Below, one piece after another: positions 7,632 through 14,673 of a stretch of 64,000 nt of DNA. Origin of the DNA: an uncultured Anaerolineae bacterium. GTDB lineage: Bacteria; Chloroflexota; Anaerolineae; Aggregatilineales; Phototrophicaceae. The translations under genes and the position numbers were made by a program. How positions within the stretch are numbered: the stretch's first letter is position 1; each line of letters opens with the position of its first letter. The stretch spans positions 1-64,000 of the forward strand of contig CALKJO010000002.1 of NCBI GenBank assembly GCA_937995825.1, read 5' to 3'. The notes under the pieces were generated by a model. That model had not been told where the DNA came from, searched no databases, and was given only the letters and a program-made list of their open reading frames with translations.

Positions 7632-9368
7632 ATGCGTCGTGGATTGTTTATCTTCCTTTTGCTGACGCTGGCGCTCGCGCTGGCAGTCGGCGCGGTGGGC
7701 GCGCAGGAACCGACTCGGTTTGCGGGCGGCTGGCCCTATCAGCTCCCTCCCGATGGTCACTTCAACAGCTACGCCTCCGGCGTCATCAACCTGGGCATCT
7801 ACTGGGACTTGATGGAGCCGCCGCTCGGCGTGTACATGTGGGCGCAGGGCGCATATGAAGGGATGCTGGCGGAGCGCTTCGGCTTTGAAGGCGATGAAGC
7901 CTATACCGTCACCCTCAAGAGCGGCGTCTCCTGGAGCGACGGCTCGCCCGTCACTGCGCGGGACATCGTCACCACGTTTTATACCGGCTATCTGATCGGC
8001 TGGGCGGTCTGGAACGACATTTCTTCGGTTGAAGCCGTCGATGATCGGACGGCGCGGTTCGTCTTCAAAGCGCCGTCGCAAGCCGCCGAGCGCCGCATCC
8101 TGACCGAGCAGATTCGCCCTGCCAGCGTTTACGGCGCCTTTGCCGAGCGCGCCAAGCCGCTGGTCGAGGCGGGCGCGCGGGCGGGCAGCGCCGATTTTGA
8201 CGCGCTCCTTTCCGAGCTGACCACCTTCCGACCTGAAGCTTTCGTCTCGGCGGGTCCGTATGTCCTACTGCCGGAGAACATCACCGATGCCAAGGTTGTG
8301 CTGGTCAAAAATGAAGGTGGCTTAAACGCTGACATCGTCGCGTTTGACGAAGTCCACCTGTGGAACGGCGAGACCGAAGTGGTCACGCCGCTGGTTCTCA
8401 ACGGCGAACTGTGGTACGGCACGTATGGCTTCCCGCCGGCGACCGAAGCGCAGTTCATCCAGGCGGGCATCGACATCATTCGTGGACCCAGCTATTCCGG
8501 TCCAGCGCTCTATTTCAATCATGCGATTGAGCCGCTCAATAACGTCAAGCTGCGTCAAGCGCTGGCGTATGCCATCAACCGCGAGCAGAACGGCTTTGTC
8601 AGCTTGGGCGAGTCGGGCATCGCCAACGAATGCATGTGCGGCATGAGCGACAACCTCGCCAGCGTGTGGCTGAGCGATGAGGTGATGGACAGCCTGAACT
8701 ACTATGACTATGACCGCGCCATGGCGGAATCGCTGATGATTGAGGCGGGCTTCAGCCGCAGCGCCGCTGGCAAATGGACGGACGCGGGCGGAAATGTCTT
8801 GGCGTTCGAGCTGATCTTCCCAGCGGAATTCCTCGACTGGGCGGCGGCGGCGGAAAACGTCACCGCGCAGTTGAACGATTTCGGGCTGGAGATCAGCGCG
8901 CGCGGCGTCCAGTTCCAGCAGCAGCAGCAGGATGTCTACGATAACAACTTCCAGCTCGCCATTCGCAACTGGGGCGTCGGCAGCCCGTTCCCCGGACAAG
9001 CTTACCTGCAAGCCTATGACCGCTACAACGGTCAGGGCGAGCTGGCGGGTGAGGGCGTCGGCGGCGGGATGCGCTTCCCGCAGTCGGTCGAATACAGCGG
9101 CGGCACGATCGAAAACCTGCGCCAGCTCGCCCTCGACTCCAGCTCCGGGCTGGACATCGACGCGCAGCGCGCGCGAGTCGCGATGCTGGCGCTGTCGTAT
9201 AACGAGCTGCTGCCCGCTATCCCGCTCTGGGAACGCTATGGCAACAACCCGCTCAACCGCGCCAAGCTCAACGCGCCGCCGAACGGCGATCCGGTCTATA
9301 TCAATGCGGGCGTGGATCACTTCATGCCCTACCTGATCATGACCGGCGGCATCACGCCAGCAGTGTAA
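7632..9368 (+). CDS. ABC transporter substrate-binding protein, family 5 (peptide/nickel type)
   Basis: A 578-residue extracytoplasmic solute-binding protein of the SBP_bac_5 family, the first gene of a peptide-type ABC transporter operon. ATG 7632 is preceded by AAAGGAG and starts a signal peptide (hydrophobic to about residue 23, cleavage near AVGAVGAQ). There is no lipobox Cys, so it is either released or held by the uncleaved helix. Family features include the segment YTVTLKSGVSWSDGSPVTARDIV, the hallmark of cluster C binding proteins, and a C-terminal half with LRQALAYAINRE. A strong hairpin follows the gene, separating it from the permeases. Confidence 0.9.
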   Translation: MRRGLFIFLLLTLALALAVGAVGAQEPTRFAGGWPYQLPPDGHFNSYASGVINLGIYWDLMEPPLGVYMWAQGAYEGMLAERFGFEGDEAYTVTLKSGVSWSDGSPVTARDIVTTFYTGYLIGWAVWNDISSVEAVDDRTARFVFKAPSQAAERRILTEQIRPASVYGAFAERAKPLVEAGARAGSADFDALLSELTTFRPEAFVSAGPYVLLPENITDAKVVLVKNEGGLNADIVAFDEVHLWNGETEVVTPLVLNGELWYGTYGFPPATEAQFIQAGIDIIRGPSYSGPALYFNHAIEPLNNVKLRQALAYAINREQNGFVSLGESGIANECMCGMSDNLASVWLSDEVMDSLNYYDYDRAMAESLMIEAGFSRSAAGKWTDAGGNVLAFELIFPAEFLDWAAAAENVTAQLNDFGLEISARGVQFQQQQQDVYDNNFQLAIRNWGVGSPFPGQAYLQAYDRYNGQGELAGEGVGGGMRFPQSVEYSGGTIENLRQLALDSSSGLDIDAQRARVAMLALSYNELLPAIPLWERYGNNPLNRAKLNAPPNGDPVYINAGVDHFMPYLIMTGGITPAV

Positions 9369-9447: not shown

Positions 9448-10542
9448 ATGGCGACCCTCAACCCACCGATCCGGTCTGCTTCATCTCGCCCCCCATCCCT
9501 CACAGCTAGCGCCCGACTGCGCCGCTTGGCGCGCAGCTACACCCTGCGCGTGTTCGCGCAGGCGGTCGTGACTGTCTGGGCGGTGATCACCTTCACCTTT
9601 TTTCTAATCCGGCTGATGCCTGGCAATCCGGTCGATGTCTATATCGACTTTTTGATGAATCAGCAAAATATCACTTATGAAGAGGCGCGCGCACGCGCGG
9701 CGTCGCAGTTCAAATTCGACCCGGACGCCAATATCTTCGTCCAGTACGGCGAATACATGGGGCGGCTCATCCAGCTTGACCTAGGCGAATCGATCACCTC
9801 GACGGGGACGCGCGTCATCGAGCAGATCGCCCGCTTTTTGCCCTGGACGGTCTTCAGCGTCGGGCTGGGGCTGTTCATCAGCTTTATATTGGGCGTCACC
9901 ATCGGCACGATCATGGCATACCTGCGCAACAGTTGGCTGGACAATCTCTTCTCGCTGCTGGCGTCGATTCTGGGCGCTGTCCCCAATTACATCTGGGGCT
10001 TGCTGATTCTGATCGTCTTCGGCGTTCAGCTTCAGTGGTTTCAGGTCGGCGCGCTGCGCGGCACGTACAACTCCAGCCTGACGCCCGGCTTCAACCTGAC
10101 CTTCCTGCTCAGCGTGCTGACCCATGCGGCGCTGCCGGTGCTGGTCTACGTCCTGGGATCGATCGGGCGCTGGATGCTCAATATGCGCAACAGCACCATC
10201 GGCACGCTCGGCGAGGATTACGTCAGCGTCGCGCGGGCGCGCGGGCTGCCGCCATCGCGGATTCTGCTGGCGTATGTCGGGCGCAATGCCGCGCTGCCGA
10301 TGTTCACCCTGCTGGCGATTGACATCGGCTTCATCATCGGCGGCAGCGTGATCATTGAGGAATTGTTCGTCTATAAGGGCATCGGCTCATTCCTGTTCTG
10401 GTCGATCTCGCAGCGCGATTACACCTCGATGCAGGGCGTGTTTCTCGTCATCACCATCTCAGTTGTATTCTCGAATGTGCTGGCAGACCTGCTCTACAGC
10501 CAGCTCGATCCGCGCGTCCGCGTCGGCGGCGGGGAGAAGTGA
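9448..10542 (+). CDS. ABC transporter permease, OppB/DppB type
   Basis: A 364-residue inner-membrane permease of the binding-protein-dependent family. After a polar N-terminus of about 30 residues comes the first helix (VVTVWAVITFTFFLIRLMPG, the typical OppB signature), a large external loop, and five more helices. The cytoplasmic coupling (EAA) loop is GEDYVSVARARGLPPSRILL. ATG 9448 follows AAGGAAA. Its stop overlaps the start of the second permease by one base (TGATG), so the two are translationally coupled and should form the heterodimeric channel. Confidence 0.92.
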   Translation: MATLNPPIRSASSRPPSLTASARLRRLARSYTLRVFAQAVVTVWAVITFTFFLIRLMPGNPVDVYIDFLMNQQNITYEEARARAASQFKFDPDANIFVQYGEYMGRLIQLDLGESITSTGTRVIEQIARFLPWTVFSVGLGLFISFILGVTIGTIMAYLRNSWLDNLFSLLASILGAVPNYIWGLLILIVFGVQLQWFQVGALRGTYNSSLTPGFNLTFLLSVLTHAALPVLVYVLGSIGRWMLNMRNSTIGTLGEDYVSVARARGLPPSRILLAYVGRNAALPMFTLLAIDIGFIIGGSVIIEELFVYKGIGSFLFWSISQRDYTSMQGVFLVITISVVFSNVLADLLYSQLDPRVRVGGGEK

Positions 10543-11789
10543 TGGTCTCCCAAGCGGCTCCCACCCACGAACGGATCATCCAAACCGCCCCACCGCGTTT
10601 GATGGAAGGGCTGCTCCGCCCGCTGCGGGTCTTCTGGCGCGCGCTGCGCCAGAATCCGGTCGGGCTGGTCGGATTCAGCGGGCTGCTGTGCTACGCCTTG
10701 CTGATCACAGTTGGACCGCTGCTTGTGCCATTCGACAACATCGTCCGCCTTGACCAGATCGCTGCCCCGCCCGGATCGCGCCAAGTGCTGCTGACTCGGG
10801 CGGAAGATGCGGCGCGCTACACGACGCTGGAGTCGCTGGCGGGTCGCACCGTCGGCTACGTCCGCGAGACCGGCGGCGAGGCGTTCCTACGCGACTATCT
10901 GCGCGCCAACCCAGACGCCTTCCAAACCGAAGACACTCGCTGGCGCAGCGGGCGCGGCGTCCCGGACGCGATGCAGGCGCTTGCTGACGGCGAGATCGAT
11001 GCGCTGGTGGTCTTTTCCGAGTCGGTCAAGCGCTTCATCCCCCATGATCCAGCCACCCCATTCACCAACCTCGTCGTCAGCAATCCCGCGCTCGGCGCGC
11101 CCCACCTGCTCGGCACAGACACGCAGGGGCGCGACATCTTCAGCCACATCGTCAATGGCGGCTCGGCGCTGATCTACACCGCGCTGCTGGCGGGTTTCTT
11201 CTCCAGCCTGATCGCGGTCACGCTCGGATCGCTGGCAGCGCTGATCGGCGGCGTGGTGGACAATGTGCTGACTTCTATCGCCAATTTCGTGCTGACCATT
11301 CCCGGCTTTCCGCTGCTGGTGGTGCTGGCATCGCTGATCACACTCAACAATATGGTGCTGCTGGCGGCGCTGATCGGCGCGCTCTCGTGGCCCGTGCTGA
11401 TGCGCGCCGTGCGTTCGCAGGTCTTGAGCCTGCGCGAGCGCGATTACGTCGAGGCGGCGGTTGCGCTCAATCTCGGACTGCCGCACATCATCCTGCGCGA
11501 AATCCTGCCCAACATGATGAGCTTCGTGGCGATCAATTTCATCTTCGCCGTCACCAGCGCCATGTATCAGCAGGTCGGGTTGATCTTTCTGGGCATGGCT
11601 CCAATCAATGACTACACTTGGGGCGTGATGCTCTATTTCGGGCGAACGCGCGGCACGCTCTTCAGCGCGGATAGCGCGCTGATGGTCTTAGCGCCTGTGC
11701 TGGCGATTGCGTTCTTTCAGGTGAGCATGGTTTTGTTTGCGCGGGCGGTTGAGGAGATGTTCGATCCGCGCCTGAGGACGGCAAAATGA
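10542..11789 (+). CDS. ABC transporter permease, OppC/DppC type, with a binding-protein-like insert
   Basis: A 415-residue permease; the family is usually near 300. The first helix is at about 40-62, the hallmark PHLLGTDTQGRDIFSHI begins near 187, and the EAA loop is RDYVEAAVALNLGLPHIILRE. Between them, residues about 78-182 form an extra external segment inserted just after AAPPGS. It contains TTLESLAGRTVGYVRETGG and DAMQALADGEIDALVVF, which read like the hinge and second-lobe motifs of type 2 periplasmic binding proteins (SBP_bac_3). ATG 10542 is preferred over the GTG at 10539. The final helices and the C-terminus FDPRLR are normal for the family, so the core is intact. Confidence 0.9.
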   Translation: MVSQAAPTHERIIQTAPPRLMEGLLRPLRVFWRALRQNPVGLVGFSGLLCYALLITVGPLLVPFDNIVRLDQIAAPPGSRQVLLTRAEDAARYTTLESLAGRTVGYVRETGGEAFLRDYLRANPDAFQTEDTRWRSGRGVPDAMQALADGEIDALVVFSESVKRFIPHDPATPFTNLVVSNPALGAPHLLGTDTQGRDIFSHIVNGGSALIYTALLAGFFSSLIAVTLGSLAALIGGVVDNVLTSIANFVLTIPGFPLLVVLASLITLNNMVLLAALIGALSWPVLMRAVRSQVLSLRERDYVEAAVALNLGLPHIILREILPNMMSFVAINFIFAVTSAMYQQVGLIFLGMAPINDYTWGVMLYFGRTRGTLFSADSALMVLAPVLAIAFFQVSMVLFARAVEEMFDPRLRTAK

Positions 11790-12823
11790 GCGAATCCGTG
11801 CTGCGCATCGATGACCTCTCCATCGTCTATCGCACGGCGCGCGGTCTGGTGCGTGCCACCAGCCACGTCAGTTTTTCGCTGGCGAAAGGCGAAACCATCG
11901 CCCTGATCGGCGAGAGCGGCAGCGGCAAGACCACCCTCAGCCTGGCGCTCATTCGGATGCTGCCCGCCGCCGCGCAGATCACCAGCGGCGCAATCCACTA
12001 CACCCGCAATGGGCAAACCCGAAATGTGCTGTCGCTGTCGCCTGGCGACATGCGCGCTTTCCGCTGGAAGGAGTGCGCGATGGTCTTTCAGGGCGCGCAG
12101 AACGCTTTCAATCCCGTCCTGCGCATCCGCCAGCAGTTCGCCGACACCGCCGCCGCGCACGGCATCAAAGACCCGGAGGTCGTCAAGGCGCGGACTTTGG
12201 AGCTTTTAAGACTTGTGCGGCTCGACCCGCAGCGCGTCTACGATGCCTATCCGCACGAAATGTCCGGCGGGATGAAGCAGCGGGCGCTGCTGGCGCTCGG
12301 CGTGCTGCTCGATCCGCAGGTGGTCATCCTGGATGAGCCGACGACCGCGCTCGACATTCTGACTCAGCGCGCCATCATCGACGTGCTGAACGAGATGCAG
12401 AAGCGGCTGAATTTCAGCATCATCTTCATCAGCCATGACCTGGCGCTGGCGGCGGAGATGGCGGATCGGGTTGCCACGATGTATGCCGGTGAGATCGTCG
12501 AGCTTGCCCCCGTCGCAGAGATGTTCTACCGCCCGCATCACCCCTACACGCTCGGCTTGCTGCGCTCTGTGCCGAAGCTCGATCAGCGCCGCGATGATCT
12601 GGTCAGCATCCCTGGCGATCCCCCCAACCTGATCGATCCCCCGTCGGGCTGCAAATTCCATCCGCGCTGCCAGTTCGCAACCGACCACTGCCATCAGGAA
12701 GCGCCGCCGCTGGTGGAATACACGCCGGGGCATTTCGCGGCGTGCTGGCACACGGATAAAGTCGCCGCCGCGCGCAGCGGGTTTATCGATTTGAAGGAGG
12801 TGAAAAAAGATGATCGCAGTTGA
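11786..12823 (+). CDS. ABC transporter ATP-binding protein, OppD/DppD type
   Basis: A 345-residue ATPase that powers the peptide transporter. Walker A is GESGSGKT (42-49), the signature is MSGGMKQR (from residue 159), and Walker B is VVILDEPT with Asp183 and Glu184. The C-terminal oligopeptide_HPY region holds the Cys-rich pattern CKFHPRC-CH-AACW seen in OppD/DppF proteins, where it may bind an iron-sulfur cluster. Start and preceding stop overlap as ATGA. The coding region contains the strong ribosome site for the next gene, whose start lies inside it. Confidence 0.95.
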   Translation: MSESVLRIDDLSIVYRTARGLVRATSHVSFSLAKGETIALIGESGSGKTTLSLALIRMLPAAAQITSGAIHYTRNGQTRNVLSLSPGDMRAFRWKECAMVFQGAQNAFNPVLRIRQQFADTAAAHGIKDPEVVKARTLELLRLVRLDPQRVYDAYPHEMSGGMKQRALLALGVLLDPQVVILDEPTTALDILTQRAIIDVLNEMQKRLNFSIIFISHDLALAAEMADRVATMYAGEIVELAPVAEMFYRPHHPYTLGLLRSVPKLDQRRDDLVSIPGDPPNLIDPPSGCKFHPRCQFATDHCHQEAPPLVEYTPGHFAACWHTDKVAAARSGFIDLKEVKKDDRS

Positions 12824-13655
12824 GACGCTGCCACAGGATCGGTTCGTTCAGGTCGGCGGGTTCAAAGCGCGCTACTGGCAGGTCGGTCAGGGCGCGCCCA
12901 TCCTGCTGCTGCACGGCATCGCGCACAGCGTCCGCGCCTGGGAACAGAACCTCGAAGGCTTGTCAGCGCGGCACACCGTCTACGCCCTCGACCTCATCGG
13001 TCATGGGCTGACCGACAAGCCGACCCGCTCATATCACATCAGCGATCTGGCGAAGTTCGTCCATGATTTCATGGCGGCGGTCGATCTGTCCAAAGCCCAC
13101 CTCGTCGGGCATTCGATGGGCGGCGCGATTGCCATGCACTTCGCCATCCTCTATCCCGCGCAGGTGGACAAGCTCGTGCTGGTCGCGCCCGCCGGCATCG
13201 GCAATGTAGTCGGACTCGGTTTCCGGCTGGCATCGCTGCCGCTGCTGGGCGAATACCTCACCCGCCCAGATTGGAAGCGCCTCAAGCTGGTCAGCCAAAG
13301 CCTGGTCTTCGACAAAACGATCATCCAAGATGAATTCGTCAATTGGCAGTATGCGTACAATGCGCTGCCCGGCGCGCAGGCGGCGCAGCTCGCCATCATC
13401 CGCACGCATTTGAACCTGTTCGGCTTCAAAAAATGGGTGACGGACATGGTCAACGCCGAGCTGGATCGCTTCAAAACCCCAACGCTGGCGATCTGGGGCG
13501 AAAATGACAATGTCATCCCGCTCGACTCGGTCAGGAGCCGGATCAGCGCGATGAAAAATGTCACGCTGCACACGCTCAAGCACTGCGGGCATCAGGTGCA
13601 GTTGGAATATCCCGAAGAATTCAATCGACTCGTGCTGAACTTTGTGAACAGCTGA
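12810..13655 (+). CDS. Alpha/beta hydrolase inside the peptide transporter operon
   Basis: A 281-residue alpha/beta-hydrolase fold enzyme. The oxyanion segment is LLLHGIAHS, the nucleophile elbow GHSMGG has Ser102, the acid is Asp233 in WGENDNVIPL, and the base is His261 in HCGHQVQLEYP. The layout is that of the MhpC/haloalkane dehalogenase/proline iminopeptidase group; the exact substrate is unknown. No signal peptide is visible. ATG 12810 lies 14 bases before the end of the upstream ATPase and has an unusually strong ribosome site (AAGGAGGTG, 7 bases upstream). Its place between two transporter ATPases suggests it acts on the imported compound (inference). Confidence 0.9.
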   Translation: MIAVETLPQDRFVQVGGFKARYWQVGQGAPILLLHGIAHSVRAWEQNLEGLSARHTVYALDLIGHGLTDKPTRSYHISDLAKFVHDFMAAVDLSKAHLVGHSMGGAIAMHFAILYPAQVDKLVLVAPAGIGNVVGLGFRLASLPLLGEYLTRPDWKRLKLVSQSLVFDKTIIQDEFVNWQYAYNALPGAQAAQLAIIRTHLNLFGFKKWVTDMVNAELDRFKTPTLAIWGENDNVIPLDSVRSRISAMKNVTLHTLKHCGHQVQLEYPEEFNRLVLNFVNS

Positions 13656-13665
13656 CGGAGGCGAC

Positions 13666-14673
13666 ATGGAGGGGGCGATTCTGGGGCTGGAAGGCGTTTA
13701 TCGCACCTTCAAAAAAGGGCGAACGCTGATTCCGGTCTTGCAGGACATCGATCTGAATGTCATGCCGCAGGAATGCATCTGCCTGGTCGGAGAAAGCGGC
13801 TGCGGCAAGACCACCACCGGCAAGATTCTCTCCGGGCTGCTCAAGCCATCGCGCGGGCGCGTGTTCTTTGAGGGCAAAGATACCACCTCGCTACGCGGCG
13901 CAGCATACAACGCCTACCGCCGCGCCGTCCAGATCATCCATCAGGACCCGTATGCCTCGCTCAATCCCGCCCACACCATCTACAGCACCCTCAGCTTTCC
14001 GCTCTTTCGGCATAAACTGGTTAAACATTACAACGAAGCCCGCGAGCGCGTCGCTGCGCTTTTGGAAATGGTCGATCTGACCCCCGTCGCAGACGTCATC
14101 GATAAATACCCGCACCAGCTCAGCGGCGGTCAGCGCCAGCGCGTCGGCATCGCCCGCGCCCTGACGACCAATCCCCGCGTCATCGTCGCCGATGAAGCCG
14201 TCAGCATGGTCGATGTCTCGATCCGCATCGGCTTGCTCAACATGATGGGCCGTTTGCAGGCGGAGCTGGGCGCGGCGCTGGTCTTCATCACCCATGACCT
14301 GGCGCTGGCGAAGTATTTCGCCTGGGAAGGGCGCATCGCCGTGATGTATCTGGGGCGCATCGTCGAGATCGGGCGGACGCAGGAGGTGATCGCCAACCCG
14401 CAGCATCCGTATACCCGCGTCCTGCTGTCTGCCATCCCGGAAGCCGATCCCGAACGGACGCGCCACAAGCAGCATATCCAGCTTCGCAGCGAGGATATCC
14501 CCCGCCTGACCGAACTGCCGCCCGGATGCGCCTTTCACCCGCGCTGCCCCTGGTTCGTGCCAGGTATGTGTGACAGCGAAGTCCCGACGCTGGAGCGCGG
14601 CGCAGACATGGACACCCGCGTCGCCTGCCACCCGCTCACGCGCGGTGAACCGCTGACGCTCTATCCAGCATGA
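13666..14673 (+). CDS. ABC transporter ATP-binding protein, OppF/DppF type
   Basis: A 335-residue ATPase, partner of the OppD-type subunit. Walker A GESGCGKT is at 42-49, the signature is LSGGQRQRVGIAR, and the Walker B region VIVADEAVSMVD reads Ala-Val-Ser where most paralogues have Pro-Thr-Ser before Ala-Leu-Asp, a mild deviation. The C-terminus has the Cys pattern CAFHPRCPWF and MCDSEVP typical of the family. ATG 13666 follows GGAGG by four bases. Its stop overlaps the start of a 59-residue membrane protein (ATGA). Confidence 0.94.
   Translation: MEGAILGLEGVYRTFKKGRTLIPVLQDIDLNVMPQECICLVGESGCGKTTTGKILSGLLKPSRGRVFFEGKDTTSLRGAAYNAYRRAVQIIHQDPYASLNPAHTIYSTLSFPLFRHKLVKHYNEARERVAALLEMVDLTPVADVIDKYPHQLSGGQRQRVGIARALTTNPRVIVADEAVSMVDVSIRIGLLNMMGRLQAELGAALVFITHDLALAKYFAWEGRIAVMYLGRIVEIGRTQEVIANPQHPYTRVLLSAIPEADPERTRHKQHIQLRSEDIPRLTELPPGCAFHPRCPWFVPGMCDSEVPTLERGADMDTRVACHPLTRGEPLTLYPA

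Follow-up and report, generated by a model that had tools for sequence, protein, structure and literature searches.

The window analysed here, a stretch of 64,000 nucleotides from an uncultured Anaerolineae bacterium of the phylum Chloroflexota (contig CALKJO010000002.1, positions 1 to 64,000), carries a peptide-importer operon whose features are listed in Table 1. By its domains and its operon partners, the gene at positions 10542-11789 is assigned to the OppC-type peptide permeases. Its OppC_N (residues 27-66) and BPD_transp_1 domains both match above the Pfam gathering cut-off, which agrees with the view, put forward in a sequence-only reading of the locus, that the permease core is otherwise intact; the NCBIfam model Opp4C matches below its cut-off. 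The coupling of the gene to its partners, also claimed in that reading, is borne out by the stop/start overlaps TGATG (OppB-OppC) and ATGA (OppC-OppD). An SBP_bac_5 binding protein, an OppB-type permease and two ATPases stand beside OppC in the window and in its relatives: of the 26 named window-type loci, 25 have an SBP_bac_5 gene upstream, all 26 have OppB and 25 have at least one ATPase gene, the exceptions being contig ends. In the window, an alpha/beta hydrolase gene (12810-13655) sits between the two ATPase genes, unlike the window-type loci holding both of them, in which they adjoin or overlap.

Table 1. Features of the OppC-type permease gene and its operon in the window
Feature	Position	Strand	Basis
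Separate SBP_bac_5 binding protein (OppA-type), signal peptide without lipobox	7632..9368	+	
OppB-type permease partner	9448..10542	+	Pfam, NCBIfam
OppC-type permease gene, 415 aa plus stop	10542..11789	+	Pfam OppC_N and BPD_transp_1
First transmembrane helix region, residues 39-61	10656..10724	+	DSSP of AlphaFold2 model
Inserted SBP lobe 2 domain, residues ~80-187	10779..11102	+	Insert-less kin, hhalign, predicted fold
First strand-to-helix loop TGG, residues 110-112	10869..10877	+	hhalign alignment, conservation
Second strand-to-helix loop RWRSGRG, residues 133-139	10938..10958	+	Conservation, model topology
Third strand-to-helix loop FS, residues 158-159, invariant 27/27	11013..11018	+	Alignment, conservation
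Family motif GTDTQGRD, residues 191-198	11112..11135	+	
BPD_transp_1 membrane core, residues 225-412	11214..11777	+	Pfam
OppD-type ATPase	11786..12823	+	Pfam
OppF-type ATPase	13666..14673	+	Pfam

Between its first transmembrane helix (TM1) and the GTDTQGRD motif, the window OppC carries a clean domain insertion. An extra segment with the phrases TTLESLAGRTVGYVRETGG and DAMQALADGEIDALVVF had been noticed there at 10773-11088; the frame and both phrases are present, and the coordinates proved nearly exact, being refined to those of Table 1 from insert-less relatives (L143, '..DQIYQPPSSEHWLGTD'). The flanks 'PPGS' and 'HLLGTD' of the window protein align with 'PPSS' and 'HWLGTD' of L143 and other insert-less kin. 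About 118 residues of the window protein fall between model positions 62 and 181, against 10 to 20 (median 18) in 63 insert-less rows, these rows being the ones with a permease-profile match split here, some of them representing the same gene twice. A cruder listing of the same loop puts the window at 129 residues and most insert-less rows at 22-30; the larger values among insert-less rows arise where the text pattern caught an upstream site. Because an insert without internal stops recurs in 28 of 154 genomes and in 26 named loci, it is neither a chance feature nor an assembly artefact.

The insert almost certainly is, and derives from, one lobe (domain 2) of an amino-acid-binding protein of the SBP_bac_3 type, an identification that rests on sequence, profile and predicted fold. 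In profile-profile comparisons with hhalign, an alignment of 27 window-group inserts matched 41 SBP_bac_3-type domains with a probability of 97.9% (E 4.7e-13), the matched part being a contiguous lobe 2 with the first hinge strand. Most of these 41 domains were recruited via searches with the insert profiles; with only seven binding-protein (SBP) domains from operon neighbours, the probability was 95.8%. Two further insert groups, B2 and B1, described below, reached 99.7% and 76.7% against the 41 domains, and 99.2% and 83.4% against the seven. The controls (SBP_bac_5, OppB and ATPase) gave at most 1.4% for all three insert groups, as did 20 column shuffles of the window group. Searched against the PDB, the window-group profile matched 18 sequences at E <= 0.1, all of them amino-acid SBPs or SBDs (best E 8.8e-5).

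Single-sequence matches were rejected as proof of a lobe, since they are sub-threshold (E 0.0005-0.34). They comprise Phosphonate-bd (E 5e-4) and NMT1 (E 0.014) in Pfam and TIGR01096 (E 5.5e-4) in NCBIfam, all below cut-off, and PDB entry 6gpm (E 0.34); the best of them are binding proteins, aligned mid-profile. No match of the insert to SBP_bac_3 (PF00497) is listed in Pfam. This 132-position model spans residues 72-288 of the L220 SBP and hence may cover mainly lobe 1. The binding-protein match sought in a profile search was obtained by profile-profile comparison.

Structure prediction led to the same identification. AlphaFold2 without templates folds the insert alone into an alpha/beta domain with beta-alpha alternation (pLDDT 84.3, pTM 0.79), and a model of the whole permease also gives the insert as an alpha/beta domain (pLDDT 92.5, pTM 0.85); these confident models rule out a disordered loop. 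With Foldseek, the best match is to ArgBP (E 3.9e-7), and the TMt is 0.83 to the isolated domain 2 of TmArgBP (6gpm). Among the best 50 of 145 rows at E <= 0.001, the first 27 are all binding proteins or their domains, and GluR0 and MltF appear later among further binding proteins. The description of the segment as type 2 binding-protein-like is thus upheld for lobe 2: its fold and profile are both found, and of the two lobes that enclose a cleft in a complete SBP only this one is present.

A survey of homologues, suggested along with the original observation, found the insert to be conserved. Of 154 genomes of the window's order, 28 gave a strong match (E <= 3e-37) to a profile of seven window-type rows, all of these 28 in the window's family and seven of them contributors to the profile; the window's own genome has one such match, and the inserts of the 28 carriers contain no internal stops. 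From 29 weaker rows, 17 were translated and by eye comprise 15 binding proteins and two RNA polymerase beta' proteins. A scan of named genomes yielded at least 80 loci, of which at least 26 hold a window-type insert, in Chloroflexota MAGs and three Trueperaceae; the other 54 loci among the matches listed, including L187, whose sequence ends before the insert region, showed no match to the three insert profiles at E 1e-3. Among 111 Deinococcota genomes, four match the window-type insert, one with an in-frame stop. Thousands of plasmid records match the permease core, and none of the four proteins read from them has the lobe (best E 0.19, L274).

A similar domain is found at the same site in two more OppC groups of the class. 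The B1 profile (GTNxxGQD permeases; three rows) matches 12 of 396 genomes, 11 of them in OppC-like frames, and when 400 genomes were drawn from the phylum, five matched, all in the class and all already among the B1 matches. For B2 (GTDNLGRD permeases), the eight strong matches in 396 genomes are the eight sequences, from a 120-genome search, that built the profile, and no further match at that strength was found among the 396; a B2 tally of 240 of 396 consists mostly of other matches (free or fused SBPs where inspected) and is not a permease count. The identification of the B2 insert as a lobe is firm. At E <= 0.01 its profile finds 66 PDB sequences, the top one at E 1.6e-19; the best 60 are by name mostly amino-acid SBPs or SBDs, together with receptor or sensor proteins that share the fold, GluR0 and BvgS among them. 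The B1 lobe is probable: single B1 inserts have no SBP match in Pfam (nothing for L039, only an unrelated weak match for L103), and its identity therefore rests on profile comparison, in which it reaches 92.6% to B2 and 45.0% to the window group in addition to the values given above.

The carriers belong to separate permease lineages. A quick tree of the core (95 rows hand-picked of 148, insert excluded, SH-aLRT support) unites the window type in a clade (98), with 14 insert-less permeases as its sister clade, and B1 in another (96). A branch with a support of 100 separates B1, B2 and 17 insert-less rows from the window type and 37 insert-less rows. Forcing all carriers together was rejected (AU p = 1e-7, log-likelihood 122 lower), and so was forcing the window type together with B2 (AU p = 1.9e-7, log-likelihood 117 lower), the four insert-less rows nearest B2 being left unconstrained in both tests. 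The position of the insert is equal across groups, after a PxG stretch and before xLGTD. In the short tree of the inserts themselves, window-type inserts join the B2 inserts at 90/91, but AU tests reject neither one origin of all inserts (p 0.44) nor other groupings (p about 0.2-0.4). Since the carrier cores do not form one clade, the phylogenies indicate that the lobe was captured by OppC at least twice, or was captured and then moved between OppC genes.

Proteins of unusual architecture turned up in other loci as well. Beside B1-type OppC genes, the SBP_bac_5 proteins of six loci (L230-L235) align as circular permutants cut near the middle, in which the two halves have exchanged places; those of L228, L236 and L237, also of the B1 group, are in normal order. 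Frames of about 740 aa in L253, L254 and L256 encode an SBP_bac_3-like domain followed by SBP_bac_5 (by Pfam in L253), with the N-terminal ~65 residues of SBP_bac_5 moved to the C-terminal end, a permutation point that differs from that of L230-L235; a C-terminal SBP_bac_5 piece was looked for in L258 and not found. Beside B2-type OppC, fusions of SBP_bac_3 and SBP_bac_5 of about 800 aa are encoded in five of eight loci (L220, by Pfam, L222, L224, L226 and L227), the others being L223, with a plain SBP_bac_5 protein, L221, with a cut SBP gene, and L225, whose sequence does not include the SBP gene. Large inserts after TM1 are found in the OppB-type permeases of the B2 systems L222 (6098-8524), L226 (3704-6064) and L225 (13-1512). 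They contain propeller-like repeats in L226 (a whole-protein match to Pfam Reg_prop) and L222 (by eye, with no Reg_prop match) and a bacterial SH3 domain (Pfam SH3_3) in L225. Extra hydrophobic N-terminal segments of about 100 residues precede the OppC core in the 13 insert-less sisters read (L010, L012, L013, L014, L017, L018, L020-L023, L026, L027 and L029; minus-strand loci left out).

The three strand-to-helix loops of the lobe bear on what it could still bind. The TGG loop occupies the position of GTT, the ligand loop of amino-acid SBPs. The FS loop falls where the DAVVxD strand of these SBPs ends in the ligand Asp. In amino-acid SBPs, this Asp holds the amino group of the ligand; the residue is Phe in 27 of 27 inserts. 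Of the isolated TmArgBP domains, domain 1 is reported to bind arginine and domain 2 is reported not to (PMC7589609). Because of the invariant Phe and this reported behaviour, independent substrate capture by a lone lobe 2 is judged unlikely, the substrate-capture option of the sequence-only reading becomes less likely, and the lobe would not be an independent receptor for amino acids. Mean entropy is 0.90 in the three former ligand-edge loops (17 columns) compared with 1.61 on the opposite edge (35 columns); helices average 1.40 and strands 0.96, the latter being about as conserved as the cleft edge. The bias towards the cleft edge is modest, as 2177 of 50000 random segment sets were equally conserved, or 1464 of 20000 with a looser definition keeping poorly filled columns, in a test that used segments from the model topology and was made after the invariant columns had been seen. 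B2 inserts show variation in the cleft loops, so the groups need not all share a single mode of contact.

Solved OppC and DppC permeases (8j5q-t, 8z1v-z, 8z21, 8wd9-b) are like the window protein in membrane core, motif and operon partners, as judged by PDB profile and fold, but their chains of 287-302 aa are too short for the lobe (415 in the window OppC). With TmArgBP domain 2 and SBP_bac_3-type SBPs, the insert shares the lobe 2 fold and the signature with the hinge strand, whereas it has no lobe 1, carries Phe for the ligand Asp and is embedded in a permease loop. GlnPQ-type permeases likewise bear SBP_bac_3-type domains covalently on an ABC importer permease, with SBDs linked in tandem to the membrane domain (PMC8025302); there a complete SBD replaces the free SBP, whereas the window OppC has one lobe in a loop and a separate SBP gene. 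Enlarged loops at the same place also occur in the Opp3C-like proteins L275 and L277, which match Opp3C over their full length below cut-off, and in L276 of Sinorhizobium fredii. The insert profiles found no significant match in these proteins (none in L275 and L276, E 0.7 in L277), and the loop of L276, encoded on a plasmid, holds a different, unrelated segment of ~100 residues.

In maltose importers, the MalF P2 domain, whose fold is not known to be SBP-derived, docks the maltose-binding protein. In E. coli DppABCDF, the TM1-TM2 region of DppB is described as holding a scoop motif that enters the DppA cleft (PMC12136057). Like MalF P2 and the DppB scoop (PMC8134467, PMC12136057), the window lobe is a permease-borne periplasmic element that would lie next to the SBP; the scoop consists of two short helices in the other permease subunit, whereas the lobe belongs to OppC. 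Located in the periplasmic TM1-TM2 loop of OppC, the lobe would stand at the channel mouth, and from topology and the published DppABCDF structure its loop would correspond by pseudo-symmetry to that of the scoop. There, as the docking option of the sequence-only reading has it, the lobe may act from the permease to dock or clamp the incoming SBP_bac_5 protein, comparable to MalF P2, with the conserved former ligand-cleft edge as the contact face, and it could help to position the SBP and seal the entrance during cargo handover. The analogy with MalF P2 and the DppB scoop makes docking or clamping the most economical reading of function, one that we place slightly short of an even call. The SBP_bac_5 gene upstream in 25 of the 26 window-type loci (a contig end in the other) counts for it, and the insert-less sister permeases that do without the lobe in comparable operons count against it.

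The lobe could also be a ligand sensor, in which the conserved cleft edge binds a small molecule or a peptide terminus, alone or with a lobe in trans, and thereby gates transport. The TGG, RWxSGxG and FS loops are indeed conserved on the edge that binds ligand in full SBPs, but such a sensor is unlikely: an invariant Phe stands in place of the canonical Asp, the window permease protein contains no lobe 1, and of the isolated TmArgBP domains only domain 1 is reported to bind arginine (PMC7589609). Somewhat less likely again is a composite site formed by the lobe and the docked SBP, in which substrate would be shared between SBP and permease before release. The place of the lobe next to the entrance, the cleft-edge conservation and the SBP_bac_3-SBP_bac_5 fusions of B2 loci would suit it; however, in the window-type loci examined the SBPs are plain SBP_bac_5 proteins with no SBP_bac_3 domain.

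Whether the lobe has any present role beyond folding is addressed by its substitution pattern. Among the 30 pairs with the lowest core synonymous distance, 23, all among L120-L134, have dN/dS values of 0.06-0.26 for the insert and 0.00-0.07 for the core. The other seven, which involve the window, L110, L111 or L113, have values of 0.28-0.95 and 0.10-0.33 at high synonymous distance. The 21 sequences give 210 possible pairs, of which 88 passed the filter; the medians over these 88 are 0.27 for the insert and 0.13 for the core. The close pairs show purifying selection on the insert; for the window's own lineage the evidence of constraint is poorer, given the ratios of the other seven pairs at high synonymous distance. 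A relic of a former SBP-permease fusion would account for a lobe without its partner lobe, for the OppCs that manage without it and for the high dN/dS of some distant pairs, which are near saturation. Nevertheless, the low dN/dS of close pairs, the 28 carriers without internal stops, the invariant loop residues and the similar lobe found at this site in permeases of separate lineages leave it improbable. That the lobe serves to keep a non-lipoprotein SBP, secreted in free form, near the membrane of cells possibly lacking an outer membrane is very improbable: a lipobox-like motif is found in none of 25 window-type SBP genes (one cut at the N-terminus), but insert-less sister systems are equally without it (one motif-like match in 17, upstream of the likely start, with four of the 17 cut at the N-terminus), so that the trait is not specific and does not follow the lobe.

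Taken as a whole, an SBP lobe 2 held in OppC as a docking or clamping domain is the best explanation of the insert, and we consider it evenly poised between right and wrong. The parts of this arrangement are already known; the combination was absent from the literature searched, weak evidence of novelty given that the search covered titles and abstract openings, mostly without subscription journals, and found no paper on such an OppC insert. More tentatively, an SBP lobe captured at one OppC loop site in at least two permease lineages may serve as a built-in half of the docking machinery. Together with the modules of the matching OppB loop, SH3-like or propeller-like, and with the fused or circularly permuted SBPs of related operons, it might form a modular periplasmic crown on Chloroflexota peptide importers, co-evolving with remodelled binding proteins.

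Recognition of peptide importers by SBPs, and the unloading of SBPs there, are under active study. With an SBP-derived lobe on the permease and natural insert-less sisters as controls, domain removal can test the role of permease-borne periplasmic elements. The repeated use of one insertion site shows the reuse of binding-protein lobes as modules, and a specialist would be surprised that one SBP lobe has been reused repeatedly at a single place in the permease. This pattern suggests that parts are added recurrently in the outer loop of OppC, where they may aid the reception of delivered cargo.
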